Part shown: positions 29,292 through 36,810 of the stretch, piece after piece | How the letters are laid out: each line of letters opens with the position of its first letter | Position numbering within the stretch: the first letter of the stretch is position 1 | Assembly (NCBI RefSeq): GCF_902459745.1 | Contig: NZ_CABPSJ010000004.1 | Span: forward strand, 496,001-560,000 | Length of the DNA: 64,000 bases | Source: Pandoraea communis | Lineage (GTDB): Bacteria > Pseudomonadota > Gammaproteobacteria > Burkholderiales > Burkholderiaceae | Reading direction: 5' to 3' | Notes under the pieces: model-generated | Seen by the model: only the letters and a program-made list of their open reading frames with translations | Told to the model about the DNA's origin: nothing | Databases searched by the model: none | Position numbers and translations under genes: made by a program

Positions 29292-29445
29292 TCTATCTGC
29301 GGAACGATGCCGTGCCCGCATGACGGGCACGGCCCTCCTCCTGACACAGGATTACGCCTCATTACCCGCAGTTCTCTCGACCCCCTCGTGCGCCCTATCG
29401 GGCAAGCGTGTCGAGAGCCCGTTTTCGGGACAAGGAGTTAGCTTC

Positions 29446-30396
29446 ATGGATATTTTTATCCAACAAATCTTGAACGGCCTCGTGCTTGGCAGCGTCTACG
29501 CGATCATTGCGCTGGGCTATACGATGGTCTACGGCATTCTGGGCATCATCAACTTTGCCCACGCCGATGTGATGATGATCGGCGCGATGGTCGCGCTGTC
29601 CACCATCAACCTGTTGTTGAAAGTGGCGCCGAACATGCATCCGGCGCTCATGCTGGCCATCGCCACGCTCGTGTGTATGCCCACGTGCGCCCTGGCCAAC
29701 TTCGTGATCGAGCGCGTGGCTTACCGGCCGTTGCGCAATGCGCCGCGTCTTGCGCCGCTGATCACGGCCATTGGCGTGTCGCTGCTGTTGCAGACGATCG
29801 CCATGCTGATCTGGTCGCGCAATCCGCTCTCGTTCCCGCAACTGCTGCCTACCGACGCCATGACGATCATCCCGCAACGCGGCGATCATCCGGGCGCCGT
29901 GACCAACGGCACCGGTATCGTGATCGTGGTGGTCGCGTTCCTCGTGATGTTCGGCCTCACGCAGCTCGTGAACCGCACCAAGCTGGGCCGCGCCATGCGT
30001 GCGACGGCGGAGAACCGCAACGTCGCCGGTCTCATGGGCGTGAACCCGAACTTCGTGATCTCGGCCACGTTCGCGCTGGGCGGTGCGCTCGCAGCGCTCG
30101 CGGGCGTCATGATGGCCTCGAACTACGGCAACGCCCACTTCTACATGGGCTTCATTCCCGGCATGAAAGCGTTCACGGCGGCGGTGCTCGGCGGTATCGG
30201 CAACCTGCAAGGCGCCATGGTTGGCGGCGTGCTGCTGGGCCTGATCGAAGCGCTGGGCGCGGGCTACATCGGCGATCTGACCGGTGGGGTGTTCGGCAGT
30301 AACTATCAGGACGTATTCGCTTTTGTCGTTCTGATCATCGTGCTGGTGTTCCGTCCGAGCGGTCTGCTCGGCGAGCGCGTGGCCGATCGTGCATAA
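29446..30396 (+). CDS. livH: Branched-chain amino acid ABC transporter, permease LivH
   Basis: Inner-membrane permease (316 aa) with about eight hydrophobic helices. MDIFIQQILNGLVLGSVYAI and GYTMVYGILGIINFAHADV are the LivH signature; the cytoplasmic coupling loop contains RATAENRNVAGLMGVN. AAGGAG precedes the ATG at 29446; the frame is open to 29320 but not coding there. It lies 18 nt before livM. Confidence 0.93.
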   Translation: MDIFIQQILNGLVLGSVYAIIALGYTMVYGILGIINFAHADVMMIGAMVALSTINLLLKVAPNMHPALMLAIATLVCMPTCALANFVIERVAYRPLRNAPRLAPLITAIGVSLLLQTIAMLIWSRNPLSFPQLLPTDAMTIIPQRGDHPGAVTNGTGIVIVVVAFLVMFGLTQLVNRTKLGRAMRATAENRNVAGLMGVNPNFVISATFALGGALAALAGVMMASNYGNAHFYMGFIPGMKAFTAAVLGGIGNLQGAMVGGVLLGLIEALGAGYIGDLTGGVFGSNYQDVFAFVVLIIVLVFRPSGLLGERVADRA

Positions 30397-30414
30397 GCGG
30401 GGAGGAGCCACACG

Positions 30415-31548
30415 ATGAATCAACCTGTGCAAACCTCCACGCCGGCCACGCAGATTTCTGCGGCGGCTGCCACCCGCAAGGCCTATCGCGGCCTGGCGAT
30501 CTTCCTGATCGGCGCCATCGTCGCCCCCGTGCTGGTGGGCTACGCGGGCGGCAACTACTGGGTGCGCGTGCTCGACTTCGCGCTGCTCTACATCATGCTC
30601 GCGCTGGGCCTGAATATCGTGGTGGGCTTTGCCGGCCTGCTCGACCTGGGTTACATCGCGTTCTATGCGGTGGGCGCGTACGTCACGGCGTTCCTCAGCT
30701 CTCCCCACCTCACGACGCAGTTCGAGTGGATCGCGCATCTGTTCCCGGCCGGGCTGCATGTGCCGGTGTGGTTCACGATACCGATAGGGGCGGCGGTCGC
30801 GGCGATCTTCGGCATCTTGCTGGGCGCGCCGACGCTGCGTCTGCGCGGCGATTACCTGGCTATCGTGACGCTGGGCTTCGGCGAGATCATCCGTATCTTC
30901 ATGAACAACCTCGACCGGCCGGTGAACATCACCAACGGCCCGAAGGGGATCACCGGCATTCAACCTGCATCGCTGTTCGGCTTTGATTTCTCGAAGGCGC
31001 ACGAACTCTTCGGATTCAAGGTCAACTCGGTGTACATGTACTACTACCTGTTCGTGTTCCTGGCGCTGCTCATCGCGTTCATCTGTGTGCGCCTGCAACA
31101 CTCGCGCATCGGACGTGCGTGGGTCGCCATTCGTGAAGACGAGATCGCCGCCAAGGCGATGGGCATCAACACGCGCAACATCAAGCTGCTCGCGTTTGCC
31201 ATGGGCGCGTCGTTCGGCGGCGTGGCCGGGGGCATGTTCTCGGCGTTTCAGGGCTTTGTCTCGCCCGAGTCGTTCACCTTCTGGGAGTCGATCGTTGTGC
31301 TCTCGATGGTGGTGCTCGGCGGCATGGGCCACATTCCGGGTGTGATTCTGGGCGGTGTGCTGCTCTCGGCGTTCCCCGAGATTCTGCGCTCGACCATGGG
31401 CCCGTTGCAGATGAAATTGTTCGGCAGCGTTATCGTCGATCCCGAAGTGATCCGGCAGTTGCTGTACGGTCTGGCCATGATTCTGATCATGCTGTACCGT
31501 CCGGCCGGCCTGTGGCCGTCGCCGCGTCCGGAAGAGCGGACTCTGTAA
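30415..31548 (+). CDS. livM: Branched-chain amino acid ABC transporter, permease LivM
   Basis: Second permease subunit (377 aa). About 50 polar N-terminal residues precede the conserved core with LNIVVGFAGLLDLGYIAFYA and the coupling loop AIREDEIAAKAMGINTRNIK. About ten hydrophobic segments. GGAGGAGCC ribosome site. Pairs with LivH to form the channel. Confidence 0.93.
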   Translation: MNQPVQTSTPATQISAAAATRKAYRGLAIFLIGAIVAPVLVGYAGGNYWVRVLDFALLYIMLALGLNIVVGFAGLLDLGYIAFYAVGAYVTAFLSSPHLTTQFEWIAHLFPAGLHVPVWFTIPIGAAVAAIFGILLGAPTLRLRGDYLAIVTLGFGEIIRIFMNNLDRPVNITNGPKGITGIQPASLFGFDFSKAHELFGFKVNSVYMYYYLFVFLALLIAFICVRLQHSRIGRAWVAIREDEIAAKAMGINTRNIKLLAFAMGASFGGVAGGMFSAFQGFVSPESFTFWESIVVLSMVVLGGMGHIPGVILGGVLLSAFPEILRSTMGPLQMKLFGSVIVDPEVIRQLLYGLAMILIMLYRPAGLWPSPRPEERTL

Positions 31549-31569
31549 GCCGAGGGAGACGACCTGATT

Positions 31570-32343
31570 ATGAGCGAACAAATTCTTCTGTCCGTCAAGG
31601 GCGTGAACAAGCGCTTCGGCGGTCTGCAGGCCCTCACCGATGTGGGCCTGGAGATCAAGCCGGGGCAAATCTATGGACTGATCGGCCCGAACGGCGCTGG
31701 CAAGACCACGTTCTTCAACGTGATCACCGGGCTTTACACGCCGGATTCCGGCGAATTCACGCTGGACGGCAGCACCTACAAGCCGACCGCTGTACATGAG
31801 GTGGCCAAGGCGGGCATTGCCCGCACGTTCCAGAACATCCGCCTGTTTGGCGGCATGACGGTGGTCGAGAACGTGATGGTGGGCCGCCACGTGCGCACGA
31901 AGATGGGAGTGATCGGAGCGATCGTGCGTTACCCCGGTGCGAAGGCCGAGGAGCGTGCCATTCGCGATCGTGCGATGGAACTGCTCGAGTATGTGGGCGT
32001 AGCGAAGTACGCCAACTACACGGCGGCCAATCTCTCGTACGGCCACCAGCGCCGTCTGGAGATTGCGCGCGCGCTGGCGACCGATCCGAAGCTGTTGGCA
32101 CTCGACGAACCGGCGGCCGGCATGAACGCCACCGAGAAGGTGGAGTTGCGCGGCTTGCTCGACAAGATCCGCAGCGACGGCAAGACGATCCTGCTCATCG
32201 AGCACGACGTGAAGCTGGTGATGGGCTTGTGCAACCGCATGACGGTGCTCGATTACGGCAAAGTGATTGCCGAAGGTTTGCCGCAGGATGTGCAGAAAAA
32301 TCCGGCGGTGATTGAAGCGTATCTCGGTGCAGGAGGCCATTGA
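31570..32343 (+). CDS. livG: Branched-chain amino acid ABC transporter, ATPase LivG
   Basis: Cytoplasmic ATP-binding subunit (257 aa). Walker A GPNGAGKTT, signature LSYGHQRRLEIARAL, Walker B LLALDEPAAGMN and the switch histidine in LLIEHDVKLVMG. The loop ARTFQNIRLFGGMTVVEN is characteristic of LivG. 21 nt after livM; the stop TGA overlaps the livF ATG by one nucleotide. Confidence 0.94.
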   Translation: MSEQILLSVKGVNKRFGGLQALTDVGLEIKPGQIYGLIGPNGAGKTTFFNVITGLYTPDSGEFTLDGSTYKPTAVHEVAKAGIARTFQNIRLFGGMTVVENVMVGRHVRTKMGVIGAIVRYPGAKAEERAIRDRAMELLEYVGVAKYANYTAANLSYGHQRRLEIARALATDPKLLALDEPAAGMNATEKVELRGLLDKIRSDGKTILLIEHDVKLVMGLCNRMTVLDYGKVIAEGLPQDVQKNPAVIEAYLGAGGH

Positions 32344-33056
32344 TGAGCGCAATGTTGACGATCAAGGGCCTGAAAGTCGCTTACGGCGGGATCAAGGCGG
32401 TCAAGGGGATCGACTTGCATATCGAGCCGGGCGAACTGGTCACGCTAATCGGCGCGAACGGTGCGGGCAAGACGACCACGATGAAGGCGATCACGGGGCT
32501 GCTGCCGTGGGCCGATGGCGACATCGAGTATCTGGGCAAGTCGATTCGCGGCGTGAAGGCGTTCGATCTGCTCAAGCAGGGTCTCGCGATGGTGCCGGAG
32601 GGGCGTGGCATTTTCACGCGCATGACCATCCTCGAGAACATGCAGATGGGCGCTTATCTGCGCAACGACAACGCGGGCATCAAGCAGGACGTCGACAAGA
32701 TGTTCGGCATTTTCCCGCGTCTGAAGGAGCGCAAAGACCAACTCGCGGGCACGCTCTCGGGCGGTGAGCAGCAGATGCTGGCGATGGCGCGTGCGCTGAT
32801 GAGCCAGCCAAAGCTGTTGCTGCTCGACGAGCCGTCGATGGGTCTCTCGCCGATCATGGTCGAGAAGATCTTCGAAGTCGTGCGTACGGTGTCGGGCGAA
32901 GGCGTGACGGTGCTGCTGGTGGAGCAGAACGCGCGCCTGGCACTGCAAGCCGCACACCGTGGCTATGTGATGGACAGCGGACTCGTCACCATGACAGGGG
33001 ACGCGAAAGACATGCTCGACGACCCGAAGGTGCGCGCCGCGTATCTCGGCGAGTAA
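32343..33056 (+). CDS. livF: Branched-chain amino acid ABC transporter, ATPase LivF
   Basis: Second ATPase (237 aa) of the LIV system. Walker A GANGAGKTT, EGRGIFTRMTILENMQMGAY, signature LSGGEQQMLAMARALMSQ and Walker B LLLDEPSMGLSP. ATG 32343 (TGATG overlap with livG, AGGAGG upstream) is preferred over the TTG three nt earlier. Last gene of the operon, followed by a terminator. Confidence 0.94.
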   Translation: MSAMLTIKGLKVAYGGIKAVKGIDLHIEPGELVTLIGANGAGKTTTMKAITGLLPWADGDIEYLGKSIRGVKAFDLLKQGLAMVPEGRGIFTRMTILENMQMGAYLRNDNAGIKQDVDKMFGIFPRLKERKDQLAGTLSGGEQQMLAMARALMSQPKLLLLDEPSMGLSPIMVEKIFEVVRTVSGEGVTVLLVEQNARLALQAAHRGYVMDSGLVTMTGDAKDMLDDPKVRAAYLGE

Positions 33057-33152: not shown

Positions 33153-33632
33153 TTACTGCGACATCGGCACGTTGGCGGACGTAACGGGGGGCAGCCGCTT
33201 GCCGAGACTCACGACATTGTCTGCGGCATAGCCGTGCGCGGTGTAGAACGCCAGCGCTTCGCGCGATTGCGTGAGCACTTGCAGATTGAGCTTGAGGCAC
33301 CCGCGCCGGGCCAGTGCGATTTCGGCGTGACGCAGCAACGCGCTCGCCACGCCGCGACGCCGCAGCATATGCGCGACCGCCAGCGAGTAGACCCAGCCGC
33401 GATGGCCGTCGTACCCGGCCATGACTGTACCCACGATCTTGTTGTCGCGCACTGCGACGAAGAACAACCCGTCGCGCATGGCCACCTTGTTCGCAATCGA
33501 GCGGCGTGGTTCGCGATGCGGCTTGTCCGCCGCGTTGTATTCGGGGAACGCCTCGCGCCAAAGCGCGATCACGGCCTCGGTATCCGCGTTGTCGAACGTT
33601 CGGATGTGGATGTTGGTGGGCGTGGCGATCAT
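33153..33632 (-). CDS. GNAT-family N-acetyltransferase, YpeA-like
   Basis: Single GNAT domain (159 aa). The block VGTVMAGYDGHRGWVYSLAV followed by RRRGVASALL is the acetyl-CoA binding site and matches E. coli YpeA closely, as does the terminal VSLGKRL. Substrate unknown. The start at 33632 overlaps the stop of the upstream GNAT gene by 4 nt (ATGA), so it is translated as part of the argD-GNAT-GNAT unit and would share its leader control. Confidence 0.88.
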   Translation of the reverse strand: MIATPTNIHIRTFDNADTEAVIALWREAFPEYNAADKPHREPRRSIANKVAMRDGLFFVAVRDNKIVGTVMAGYDGHRGWVYSLAVAHMLRRRGVASALLRHAEIALARRGCLKLNLQVLTQSREALAFYTAHGYAADNVVSLGKRLPPVTSANVPMSQ

Positions 33633-34126
33633 GGCGCTTCCTGTTTGCCTGTGTAGATGTCGGGCCGATGAATCTGCATCATCTTGTTCACGGGGCCGAG
33701 CGGTTCGAAGCCGTACCGGGCATAGAGACCTGCTGCGTCGGTGGTGGCGAGCAGAAAGCGCCGCAGTTGCTGCAGCGCAGGGTGCACCAGTACGCTCTCG
33801 CACAGACGCTTACCGATGCCCAGCCCGCGCATCGATGGGTCGACGAACACGTCGGCCAGATAGGCGAACGTTGCGCGGTCGGTGATCACGCGTGCGAAAC
33901 CCACCTGCTTCGCGGGGCCACCTTCAACCTGTGTCGCATAGGCGCCGAAGCACAGCGAATGGGAGATGGCGCGCACGAGCGTGTCCCTGGGAATGTCCTT
34001 GGCCCAATGGGTTTGCGTCGAGAGTGCGTGATGGATGAAGCCGATATCGAGCCGTGCCGGATCGGCGGAAATCTCGACGATGGCGTCGGCGGGCGGTGTG
34101 GGGTGCCCGTGACTCAGGTCGTTCAT
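33629..34126 (-). CDS. GNAT-family N-acetyltransferase
   Basis: GNAT domain protein (165 aa). VFVDPSMRGLGIGKRLCESV is the acetyl-CoA pyrophosphate loop, and LATTDAAGLYARYGFEPL is the typical C-terminal motif. The ATG at 34126 has AGGAG 8 nt upstream; longer frames to 34225 are not used. It sits 106 nt downstream of argD and overlaps the next GNAT gene. Substrate unknown; a small amine or amino acid is plausible given the neighbour. Confidence 0.87.
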   Translation of the reverse strand: MNDLSHGHPTPPADAIVEISADPARLDIGFIHHALSTQTHWAKDIPRDTLVRAISHSLCFGAYATQVEGGPAKQVGFARVITDRATFAYLADVFVDPSMRGLGIGKRLCESVLVHPALQQLRRFLLATTDAAGLYARYGFEPLGPVNKMMQIHRPDIYTGKQEAP

Positions 34127-34232
34127 GGAAAGCGTCTCCTTTGCGATGGCACACGCACCGCGTCGCCCGGGATTGGCCGGGTGCGCGGCAGGCGTATGTC
34201 CGGCGTGCGTGCCGGACGTCGTCATGTCTTCG

Positions 34233-35501
34233 TCAGACGTGTTTGGCGAGGAGCGCGTCGAGCATCGACAGCATCTGATCGATCTCGTCGCGGCTCACGT
34301 TCAGCGCGGGCATGAAGCGCAGCAGGTTCGGACGCGCGGAGTTGAGCAACAACCCGTCCGGTGTCATGTCGCGGGCGGCTTCGACCAGTTGCGGACCGAT
34401 GTCGCGGCCGAGCAGCAGCGCGCGCAGCAAGCCGGCGCCACGCTCGCCCTCGCCGCCGTAACGCGACGACAGATGCTGCAACCCGGCGCTCAGATAGTCC
34501 GCCTGCGCGCGCACGAACTCGAGGAAGCCCGGGGCGCTGACCGTCCGCATGACTGCGAGCCCGACGGCACACATGAGCGGGTTACCGTTATATGTGCCGC
34601 CCTGATCGCCCGGTTGGAATACGGCGAACTCGTCGCCGCACAGCATTGCGGCCAGCGGCACGCCGCCGCCGATTCCCTTGCCGAGCGTCATGATGTCGGG
34701 GACGATGCCTGCCTGCTGATGCGAGAAGAGGGTGCCCGTGCGTCCGCAGCCTGTTTGCACCTCATCTAGGATTAGCAGGAGCCCGCGCGCTTTCGTGAGC
34801 GCGCGCAGTTCCTTCAGGAATGCTTCGGTGGCCGGCACGACACCGGCTTCGCCCTGAATCGGTTCGAGCATCACGGCGACGGTATCGGGGCCGATAAGGG
34901 CCTCGACCGACGCGATATCGTTCAGGTCGGCCTTGGGAAAGCCCGGCACTTGCGGGGCGAAGATCGTGTCCCATCCCGGCTTGCCGCTGGCGGACATGGT
35001 GGCGAGCGTGCGGCCGTGGAAGGCATTCTTGAACGTGATGATCTCGAAGCGCGCACCGCCCGAGGCGTTCGGATGCAACTGGCCCCACTTGCGCGCGAGC
35101 TTGATGGCGCTCTCGTTGGCCTCGGCGCCGCTGTTGGCGAAGAAGACCTTGCCGAGCCCCGAGAGCCTGGCGAGCAGGTCGGCCAGCTCGATCATCGGCA
35201 CGTTGTAGTACGCGGGGCTGGGGTTGAGCAGCATCCCGCTTTGCGTGGCGAGTGCGTCGCGCATGACGGGATGGCAGTGGCCCAGGCTGTTGACGGCCCA
35301 GCCCTGAATGAAGTCGAGATATCGCTTGCCGTCGTGGTCGTACAGCCAGCCGCCCTTGCCGTGCGTGAACACGAGGTCGGGGCGCGAGGTGATAGGCAGT
35401 AACGCCTGCGTGGAGAACTCGGCGAACTTGGCGTTGCGGACCCCTTTGGGCGAGGGGATGGCGGGCGAGGTGGACGCGGCGGACGAATGGGCAAGCGACA
35501 T
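34233..35501 (-). CDS. argD: Acetylornithine-type class III aminotransferase
   Basis: PLP enzyme (422 aa) of the acetylornithine/ornithine aminotransferase family, interconverting N-acetylglutamate semialdehyde and N-acetylornithine in arginine metabolism. Seen: [18 protein letters not shown], the cofactor Asp in [14 protein letters not shown] (D246) and Schiff-base Lys K275 in [12 protein letters not shown] 35501 has CGGAGA 6 nt upstream. Burkholderiaceae carry more than one such gene, so this may be catabolic or a paralogue rather than the sole ArgD. The Arg-rich leader and terminator in front of it support a link to arginine. Confidence 0.82.
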
Positions 35502-35540
35502 AACGGTCTCCGAAGGGCAAGGGTGAGAGAGACGGGAAAT

Positions 35541-35570
35541 AAAAAAAGCCACGGGGGTTGCCCGTGGCTT
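35541..35570 (-). terminator. Attenuator terminator before argD
   Basis: On the minus strand the perfect stem AAGCCACGGG/CCCGTGGCTT (loop CAACC) runs straight into further T residues. It lies 23 nt after the leader-peptide stop and 40 nt before the argD ATG. No promoter fits between it and argD, so argD transcripts must read through it. Confidence 0.8.
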
Positions 35571-35593
35571 CGCTGTGCTTGAGAACTTGCGTG

Positions 35594-35680
35594 TTATCGC
35601 AGTCGATAGCGTGCCGCGCGGCATCCCGGTTGGGGCAGCGTACGGCGACGTCGGATCGAGGCGATGGCAATCAGGTTCAT
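35594..35680 (-). CDS. Arginine-rich leader peptide (candidate attenuator)
   Basis: A 28-codon frame beginning MNLIAIASI with four consecutive Arg codons at 10-13 (CGA CGT CGC CGT) and ending CRAARYRLR. Eight of 28 residues are Arg, three of them encoded by CGA, an unusual codon in high-GC genomes. A TTGACA promoter places the transcript start at or beside the ATG, and an intrinsic terminator follows 23 nt after the stop. Position, size and codon content fit a leader peptide whose translation rate reports charged tRNA-Arg. No ribosome site is visible; initiation would be leaderless. I did not find the antiterminator pairing by eye, so the mechanism is inferred. Confidence 0.6.
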
Positions 35681-35687
35681 GTCGGCA

Positions 35688-35717
35688 AGCATAAGGTGAT
35701 GATGCGGCGCTTGTCAA
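35688..35717 (-). promoter_or_regulatory. Promoter of the argD leader
   Basis: Consensus TTGACA (35712-35717) and TATGCT (35688-35693) with an 18-nt spacer on the minus strand. The predicted start point falls at about 35680, the first base of the leader peptide. Confidence 0.6.
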
Positions 35718-35775
35718 AGGGTATGCGTGCACTGTGGCGTGCGTGCATCTCTGCGGGCGGCTCGTGTCGTCCGGT

Positions 35776-36810
35776 TCACTGACCCCCGCCGGGGTTGTCG
35801 GCTTCGGTGGTGAATGCATCGGCGAAGAACGCGTCCTCCGGCAGATGGTGATGCGCGACGAAGTCGCGGCGTGCCGACTCCACCATCACGGGTGCGCCGC
35901 AGGCGTAGACTTCGTACCCCGACATATCCGGCAGGTCTTCCGCCACGGCGCGATGCACGAAGCCCGTGCGGCCTTGCCACCGATCTTCCGGCGCGGGCTC
36001 GGAGAGTACCGGCACGAAACGGAAGCCCGGAATGTCGCGCGCCCACTGTTCGGCCAGTTCGCGCAGGTAGATGTCTTTCAACTGGCGCGCGCCCCAATAC
36101 AGCGTCATCGGCCGGTCGAGGCCCTTGTGAACGGCGTGCTCGACGATCGCCTTGATCGGCGCGAAGCCGGTGCCCGAGGCGAGCAGCACGATGGGTTTGT
36201 TCGAATCTTCGCGCAGGAAGAACGTGCCCAGCGGCCCTTCGAAGCGCAGGATCTCGCGCTCCTTCATGTGATTGAAGACGTGATCGGTGAACACGCCGCC
36301 GGGCATGTGACGCAGATGAAGCTCGAGGATGCCTTCTTCGTGCGGCGCGGTCGCCATCGAATAGCTGCGACGCCTGCCGTCCTTCAGGATGAACTCGATG
36401 TACTGGCCGGCGAGGTACTGGAAACGCTCGTTGGCAGGCAATTGCAGACGCATCACGATGACGTCGTCGGCGCGCCGCTCGAGTGCGTTCACGCGGCACG
36501 GCAGGCGCTTGACCGGAATGTCGCCGATGCCTTTGACTTCGCGCGATTCGACGACGAGGTCGCCTTTGGCGTGGGCGCAGCACAGCAATGCGAAGCCGCG
36601 TGTTTCTTCCTCTTTGGTGAGTGCAGAGCTGGAGTGCGCACCGTGCTCGACGCTGCCTTCGACCAGCTTGGCCTTGCACGAACCGCAACCGCCATTCTTG
36701 CAGCCGTAAGGCAAACCGATGCCCTGACGCAACGCTGCGGAGAGCACGGCCTCGCCGTCTTCGATCTGGAACTCGCGCCCGCTCGGCACGAGGGTAACGT
36801 TGTAAGCCAT
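35776..36810 (-). CDS. CDP-6-deoxy-delta-3,4-glucoseen reductase-like [2Fe-2S] flavoreductase
   Basis: NAD(P)H-dependent electron-transfer protein (344 aa). The N-terminal plant-type ferredoxin domain has C37, C42, C45 ([10 protein letters not shown]) and C77; it is followed by an FAD domain with [11 protein letters not shown] and an NAD domain with [15 protein letters not shown] and EVYACGAP. Commonly annotated as AscD-like in Burkholderia, but a sugar-dehydration cluster is absent, so a general reductase role is more likely. It could even serve a Rieske oxygenase. The start is 15 nt from the divergent SDR gene. Its stop lies just upstream of the argD leader promoter. Confidence 0.85.

Follow-up and report, generated by a model that had tools for sequence, protein, structure and literature searches.

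In this work we have examined a stretch of 64,000 nucleotides of Pandoraea communis DNA (the window), in which an earlier sequence-only reading had noticed a short arginine-rich frame and a terminator in front of argD. Our results show that the parts of this leader are conserved in many relatives, and that a segment located after the arginine codons, segment C, covaries with the terminator between families. We propose that the element very probably governs argD by ribosome-mediated transcription attenuation, with charged arginine tRNA as the signal. It is the comparative results that make the layout more than chance, and the earlier suggestion of ribosome-mediated attenuation, with arginine as the putatively sensed amino acid, is supported by the conservation of the Arg codons and by a covarying antiterminator. 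A search of the open-access literature found no arginine attenuator of this kind before argD, and the argD leader appears to be a form of ribosome-mediated attenuation not described before, a proposal that is computationally well supported.

The argD leader in the window

The element lies on the minus strand, as do all the features described in this paragraph. Its promoter, at 35717-35688, consists, as the sequence-only reading had it, of a -35 hexamer TTGACA (35712..35717) and a -10 hexamer TATGCT (35688..35693) separated by a spacer of 18 nt, and it agrees with the consensus at 10 of 12 positions. It is the sole promoter-like site in 35300-36000, where shuffles lead one to expect 0.1, and the claim that no promoter lies between the terminator and argD held over this interval. 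The -10 hexamer ends 7 nt ahead of the leader ATG at 35680, which opens a frame of 28 codons plus a TAA stop (leader ORF 35594..35680, stop at 35596-35594); a second in-frame ATG, at 35692, falls inside the -10 box. Eight of the 28 codons specify Arg, four of them consecutively at codons 10-13 (CGA CGT CGC CGT, 35642..35653, named here segment B), and CGA is found three times, at codons 10, 26 and 28, these counts being as first read. Codons for the amino acid that the pathway makes are thus concentrated in the leader ORF, as is expected of an attenuator. Further along come segment C (35612..35622), which is the candidate antiterminator partner of the terminator 5' arm and also a partner of segment B, then the terminator 5' arm itself (35561..35571, with the core GCCACGG), and finally the terminator 3' arm with its T tract (35541..35555). 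The hairpin followed by a T tract that had been reported is present, although its stem (35571-35545) has 11 pairs and not the 10 bp first counted. The predicted fold of the window leader RNA has a z of -4.1, a value equalled by none of 200 shuffles.

The controlled gene is argD, coding for acetylornithine transaminase (34233..35501, minus strand, ATG at 35501); its match to NF002985 reaches 680.5 bits, the cutoff being 568, in agreement with the earlier assignment of the downstream gene. A GNAT gene (33629..34225, minus strand) starts 7 nt past the argD stop and is probably co-transcribed with argD. It is overlapped by a second GNAT ORF, of the PRK03624 family (33153..33803, minus strand), which is listed with a GTG start and whose real start is probably further in. 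argD is the sole downstream gene common to all 15 other loci compared, the first kind of GNAT homologue following it in 3 and the second kind in 5 of these 15.

Upstream of the leader, and also on the minus strand, there is a 2Fe-2S/FAD/NAD reductase gene (35779-36807); reductase-like sequence was also seen by eye upstream of argD in relatives without the leader (L168, L175). Elsewhere in the window, an open frame of 985 aa (29395-32352, minus strand) lies opposite plus-strand transporter-like genes and is probably a GC-rich shadow frame. In the window's genome, inspection by eye showed no such leader before argF, argG, carA or two paralogues resembling argD; the rule-based scan described below, applied to 700 nt, found it in 0 of these 5. 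A search for the ArgR C-terminal domain found it in 8 of 14 control genomes but in none of 300 genomes of the order.

Conservation in the window's family

RF02884 (BcKCsr7) is the sole Rfam match at E values up to 1 in 35000-36500, where no T-box or riboswitch was found. The match spans 35542-35694 and scores 46.2 bits, which does not reach the gathering threshold of 59; the window element has the same place, ORF and terminator as the members that score above it. A search of 200 genomes of the window's family gave matches in 121 genomes, with 81 genomes above the cutoff, and argD lies downstream of 118 of the 126 matches, among which the window stands for its own genome. The eight matches without argD, which score 29.7-33.3 bits and one of which (L127) is near a contig end, were excluded before leaders were counted. 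Leaving out L080 and L085 as well gave 116 readable leaders. In neither of these two matches, from genomes of 3.8 and 4.2 Mb (genera g8 and g10), could a leader ATG be read, owing to Ns at that place or to the absence of an ATG there; in L085 the argD match is partial, beginning at residue 161 and located 462 nt on from the RF02884 match.

The sequence-only reading had named as evidence against attenuation that relatives do not conserve the Arg codons. In the family they are conserved: an Arg run, taken as at least two Arg, opens with CGA in every one of the 116 readable leaders. The run has four Arg in 109 of them, three in 2 and two in 5 (genus g3), the leaders of genus g3 carrying RRSFR, RRSVR or RRRAR instead of four Arg. 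When 38 family leaders were aligned, the core GCCACGG of the terminator arm and the GGC at 35615-35613, in segment C, were invariant in all 38.

The same element is therefore already filed in Rfam, under an sRNA label, since RF02884 is typed there as an sRNA ("Burkholderia sRNA"). This label, and the expression of a short RNA that is listed among sRNAs (PMC10987360), would suit an element that acts mainly in trans as an sRNA encoded beside argD, with its own terminator and with an ORF that is incidental; the attenuated trpL RNA of Sinorhizobium is described as acting in trans (PMC7298713). We regard such an sRNA as an unlikely explanation. argD adjoins 81 of the 81 matches above the gathering cutoff, the Arg codons have been kept where most other sequence has changed, and the terminator directly precedes argD, no other promoter-like site having been found between them.

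Occurrence in the order and beyond

With NF002985, 44 of the 300 genomes searched in the order have an argD above the cutoff. The upstream DNA was read for the 47 best argD places, of which 45 pass the cutoff and 2 fall just short of it. An Arg-rich leader ORF followed by an intrinsic terminator precedes 27 of these 47 copies, which belong to 9 families, and in 27 of 27 the terminator lies between the leader ORF and argD (L207 was added by hand to the 27, its Arg codons being separated from one another). The leader sequence is much changed between families while the layout is the same, and the leader peptides vary widely, as illustrated by MKIFTDMSSPNIARRRSSFFEPGTMYE, MDLLTRTCSASRRRRHFARSPSLVPR, MNTKFNDALRRRITTSGMRSCGRRQP and MNSALTISSRRTRAAARARSGRGALSGACAGPEVGM. 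The support that the sequence-only reading had expected from relatives, namely Arg-rich leaders within variable sequence, was in this way found in other families.

The starts of the 27 order-level leaders were picked by hand after the upstream DNA had been read, the upstream one of two in-frame ATGs being chosen by the -10 box, so that the order-level promoter count is not blind; a rule-based scan served as a check. The scan covered up to 700 nt and required a promoter of at least 8/12, an ATG 5-8 nt past the -10, an ORF of 10-45 codons containing 3 or more Arg, and a terminator. It recovered 24 of the 27 leaders, missing L180, L182 and L184, whose promoters are below 8/12, and gave no hit on 57 reverse strands.

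In the other 20 of the 47 copies, neither the reading of the upstream DNA nor the scan (0/20) found such a leader. Short frames with RR in eight of these (L174, L175, L176, L178, L187, L188, L197 and L200) and a weak terminator in L176 were taken as chance. In genus g12 of the window's family, which has small genomes (L168, L169 and L174), argD stands close behind a reductase-like gene, and the leader and terminator were not found before it, which looks like a loss of the attenuator, with argD taken into the upstream transcript.

Outside the order, four of five argD copies from other orders of the class lack such a leader. In the fifth, L249, a TTGACA promoter is followed by an ATG 6 nt past the -10, and a terminator is present; the ORF, MNNLKPMALRMRFMLRLRGVNTVLCVLGKG, contains four spaced Arg, the first of them encoded by CGA; this leader is found ~370 nt before the argD match, with a stretch from terminator to argD that is longer than elsewhere. 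The model R1 matched 41 of 300 genomes, with argD downstream in 8 of the 30 loci listed. Most of the other listed loci were rejected by eye as ordinary terminators, L143 and L153 being the exceptions. In L153 and L143, both from family f15 (genus g39), a leader beginning MNSPSLTLVRVRPAARLQ is located, around 1501-1656, behind a TTGACA/GATAAT promoter and before a terminator, and in L153 the next gene resembles, by eye, an EamA/DMT-type transporter. Here an exporter may be under the control of another type of Arg-codon attenuator.

Codon choice in the arginine run

In a set of 32 leaders, made up of the 27 order-level leaders and 5 representatives of the window's family, which also served for the pairing tests and the ribosome folding described below, CGA is the first run codon in 29 (L207 included), and the run codons are CGC 45 times, CGA 35, CGT 19 and CGG once. 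In the window genes CGA makes up 3.8% and CGG 12.3% of the Arg codons, as counted over 1055 Arg codons of 36 window genes chosen by composition. CGU, CGC and CGA are in the usual bacterial reading decoded by one tRNA and CGG by another, and the Arg run therefore addresses one tRNA. The nearly invariant CGA at its head makes for a sharp prediction of which tRNA is read.

Leader peptides that are arrested by a ligand include the fungal arginine attenuator peptide (AAP) and speFL, and in the argD leader too arginine or a related metabolite, and not the charged tRNA, might arrest the nascent peptide. A peptide likeness around the run, RRR(R)-S/T-P/L-L-P, can be seen by eye in families f1, f8, f15 and f35 but not in f3, f5, f21, f24 and f39. 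Two consecutive Arg codons are reported to mediate the arginine response of Salmonella orf34 (PMC6386406). The arrangement of the terminator, segment C and the position of the run nevertheless fits stalling at codons, and the rare synonymous CGA has been kept, which a model based on the peptide alone does not need, although RNA pairing could also keep CGA. Ligand arrest seems to us even less probable than an sRNA acting in trans.

Start of transcription

At the order level, a promoter-like site of at least 8/12 ends 6-7 nt ahead of the ATG in 24 of 27 leaders, compared with a mean of 1.0 and a maximum of 4 of 27 for a promoter at that gap in shuffled upstream DNA. In the family, the promoter score is at least 8/12 in 103 of 116 leaders, with a gap of 6-8 nt from the -10 to the ATG. 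Shine-Dalgarno-like words before the leader ATG were found in 0 of 116 family leaders and in 2 of 27 at the order level. With the -10 box at this distance from the AUG in those 24 of 27, the leader ORF is probably leaderless. The predicted transcript start is the ATG itself, a point that the earlier reading had missed, and the ORF would therefore lack a ribosome site.

In the genome of B. cenocepacia NCTC13227, which we take to be the J2315 strain, the stretch that begins with the A of the leader AUG and ends with the last G-C pair of the terminator stem measures 147 nt. A short RNA called RIT34, nc5U30 or Bc_KC_sr7 is made in B. cenocepacia J2315, with coordinates 2,967,641 to 2,967,787, that is, 147 nt (PMC10987360). 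The published length fits a start at the leader AUG; the agreement is one of coordinate arithmetic, and a 3' end within the T tract would shift the 5' end a few bases into the ORF. In B. cenocepacia, 82 short 5' UTRs derived from processing or attenuation have been described (PMC5688073).

A candidate antiterminator

The weak point of the sequence-only reading was a missing antiterminator. In the alignment of 38 leaders of the window's family, an invariant GGC about 20 nt past the Arg run has two possible partners, the Arg-codon segment and the terminator arm. Within this family no covariation between C and the arm was found among the 38 aligned leaders, because those pairs do not vary. Between families, the terminator stem changes and segment C changes with it: C is UGCGGCC and the arm GGCCGCA in f24, C is GGCGCG and the arm CGCGCC in f3, and C is CCGUGGC and the arm GCCACGG in f5.

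The duplex energies of C and the arm in single leaders were weak when compared with dinucleotide shuffles (combined p 0.06, family medians), and a family swap test was chosen after this result because it controls for composition. In this test a family's own arm pairs with C better than the arms of other families do (p ~0.001; 0.0025 with block means and 0.00075 with 20,000 permutations), and for the stretch 6-42 nt past the run p was 0.00025, which is the floor of 4000 permutations. The controls gave no effect in the 3' remainder (p 0.50; the last 10 nt for short leaders) or in the 5' part (p 0.87), and the swap statistic was reached by 0 of 100 shuffles. The raw pairing energy of the 6-42 nt stretch was -10.8 kcal/mol versus -7.9 for shuffled sequences (reached in 0 of 300), and the pairing energy with the arm peaks 21-24 nt past the Arg run (mean over 9 families). 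For pairing between B and C, the energy test gave p 0.71 and the swap test p 0.02, and the family alignment showed no clear covariation. By computation, then, a pairing of C with the arm is found that covaries between 9 families, stands above shuffles and would exclude the terminator.

That the hairpin does no more than terminate the reductase gene, whose end on the same strand lies upstream at 35776, with an argD promoter that has gone unseen and Arg codons that are a by-product of GC richness, is extremely improbable, as a strong promoter separates that gene from the hairpin, CGA-first Arg codons recur in 9 families, the terminator arms covary with C, and the layout appears on 0 of 57 reverse strands in the rule-based scan.

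Folding with a ribosome on the leader

The leaders were also folded in the state that precedes synthesis of the terminator 3' arm, with the footprint of a ribosome on the Arg run. The family-mean probability of pairing between C and the arm was 0.65 with the first Arg codon in the A site and 0.66 with the last, 0.16 without a ribosome, and 0.03 with the ribosome at the stop codon, this last value being in part a consequence of the set-up, because in most leaders C lies under a ribosome that has reached the stop. The comparison with shuffled leaders is free of this effect: they gave 0.30 for the stalled state (sd 0.05, maximum 0.43) against the 0.66 observed, which was reached by 0 of 40. In the window leader, the probability was 0.03 with a stall on the first Arg codon, and 0.69, 0.70 and 0.58 on Arg 2-4.

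Some leaders depart from this pattern. Genera g20, g10 and g8 of the window's family have an early stop and still show C pairing of 0.44-0.49 with the ribosome at the stop, and one f3 leader shows 0.27; attenuation may be leakier in these, as C stays partly free. Six leaders of f24, f3 and f5 pair C without any ribosome (0.59-0.88), which predicts a high read-through without translation.

Proposed mechanism

We propose that transcription starts at, or within 1-2 bases of, the leader AUG, and that the leaderless ORF would be translated at once. With plentiful arginine, the ribosome would clear the Arg run and reach the stop codon, covering C in most of the leaders modelled (only in part where the stop is early, as in g20, g10 and g8); the terminator would then form and transcription would yield no more than the short RNA that Rfam lists as BcKCsr7. 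A shortage of arginyl-tRNA would stall the ribosome on the CGA-led run, where it would cover segment B, C would be free to pair with the terminator 5' arm as the antiterminator, and RNA polymerase would read into argD and probably into the GNAT genes too. If the leader were not translated, C should for the most part be tied up elsewhere in 8 of 9 families, f24 being the exception, and the terminator should again form. We infer that the leader is translated and that ribosomes stall on it, and also that arginine is what is sensed and which way argD responds: as the layout is kept in many relatives without a detected ArgR, it probably turns argD on when arginine runs out.

A wider reading, which we offer tentatively and with somewhat more doubt than belief, is that in Burkholderiales without a detected ArgR a leaderless attenuator took over the arginine feedback at argD, tuned by the rare CGA that heads the run to a single tRNA, the one for CGU, CGC and CGA, with the terminated leader and its peptide perhaps also acting in trans.

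If the attenuator is as proposed, a function would be given to the Rfam "sRNA" RF02884, for which the accessible part of the source states none (PMC10987360). Arginine would join the amino acids whose synthesis responds to them through classic attenuation, and the attenuator design would be seen to work from a leaderless AUG. A testable explanation would also be at hand for the regulation of arginine supply in bacteria in which ArgR was not detected.

Comparison with known systems

The trp, his, leu, ilv, phe and thr leaders are ribosome-mediated transcription attenuators of Proteobacteria. Like them, the argD leader has a run of codons for the product, a candidate pre-emptor pairing, a candidate antiterminator, a terminator and a biosynthetic gene downstream. 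In contrast to them, it would sense arginine, its ORF is probably leaderless, the first codon of its run is nearly always CGA, and it would control argD alone or with GNAT genes instead of a long operon.

The start of the transcript has a counterpart in the trpL attenuator of Sinorhizobium meliloti (rnTrpL/peTrpL), whose RNA has its 5' end at the ATG of the leader ORF and whose terminated leader is a small RNA (PMC7298713). This likeness is one of description, and the S. meliloti leader carries Trp codons where the argD leader has Arg. For B. cenocepacia, RF02884 (Bc_KC_sr7, RIT34, nc5U30) is listed only as an sRNA in the accessible part of the source, which differs from the present work in making no mention there of a leader peptide, Arg codons or control of argD (PMC10987360).

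Arginine codons are also used in the speF leader of Salmonella, in which consecutive Arg codons of orf34 mediate the arginine response and change the mRNA structure, rare and frequent Arg codons both being reported to work (PMC6386406). Unlike the argD leader, this one precedes the gene for an ornithine decarboxylase in a gammaproteobacterium, acts through Rho-dependent premature termination, and has an ORF that begins at +32 (PMC6386406). The carA gene of Pseudomonas aeruginosa resembles argD in having a leader peptide and possible attenuation at an arginine/pyrimidine gene, but it is a different gene, its attenuation is described as responding to pyrimidines, and its arginine control as transcriptional (PMC4997734). 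Finally, uORFC-8-2 before cysS of Rhodobacterales concerns a cysteinyl-tRNA synthetase gene, cysteine codons and another class of bacteria; like the argD leader, it has been proposed as a ribosome-mediated attenuator, and its tandem codons likewise stand for an amino acid, Cys, that does not belong to the classic set (PMC8632094).
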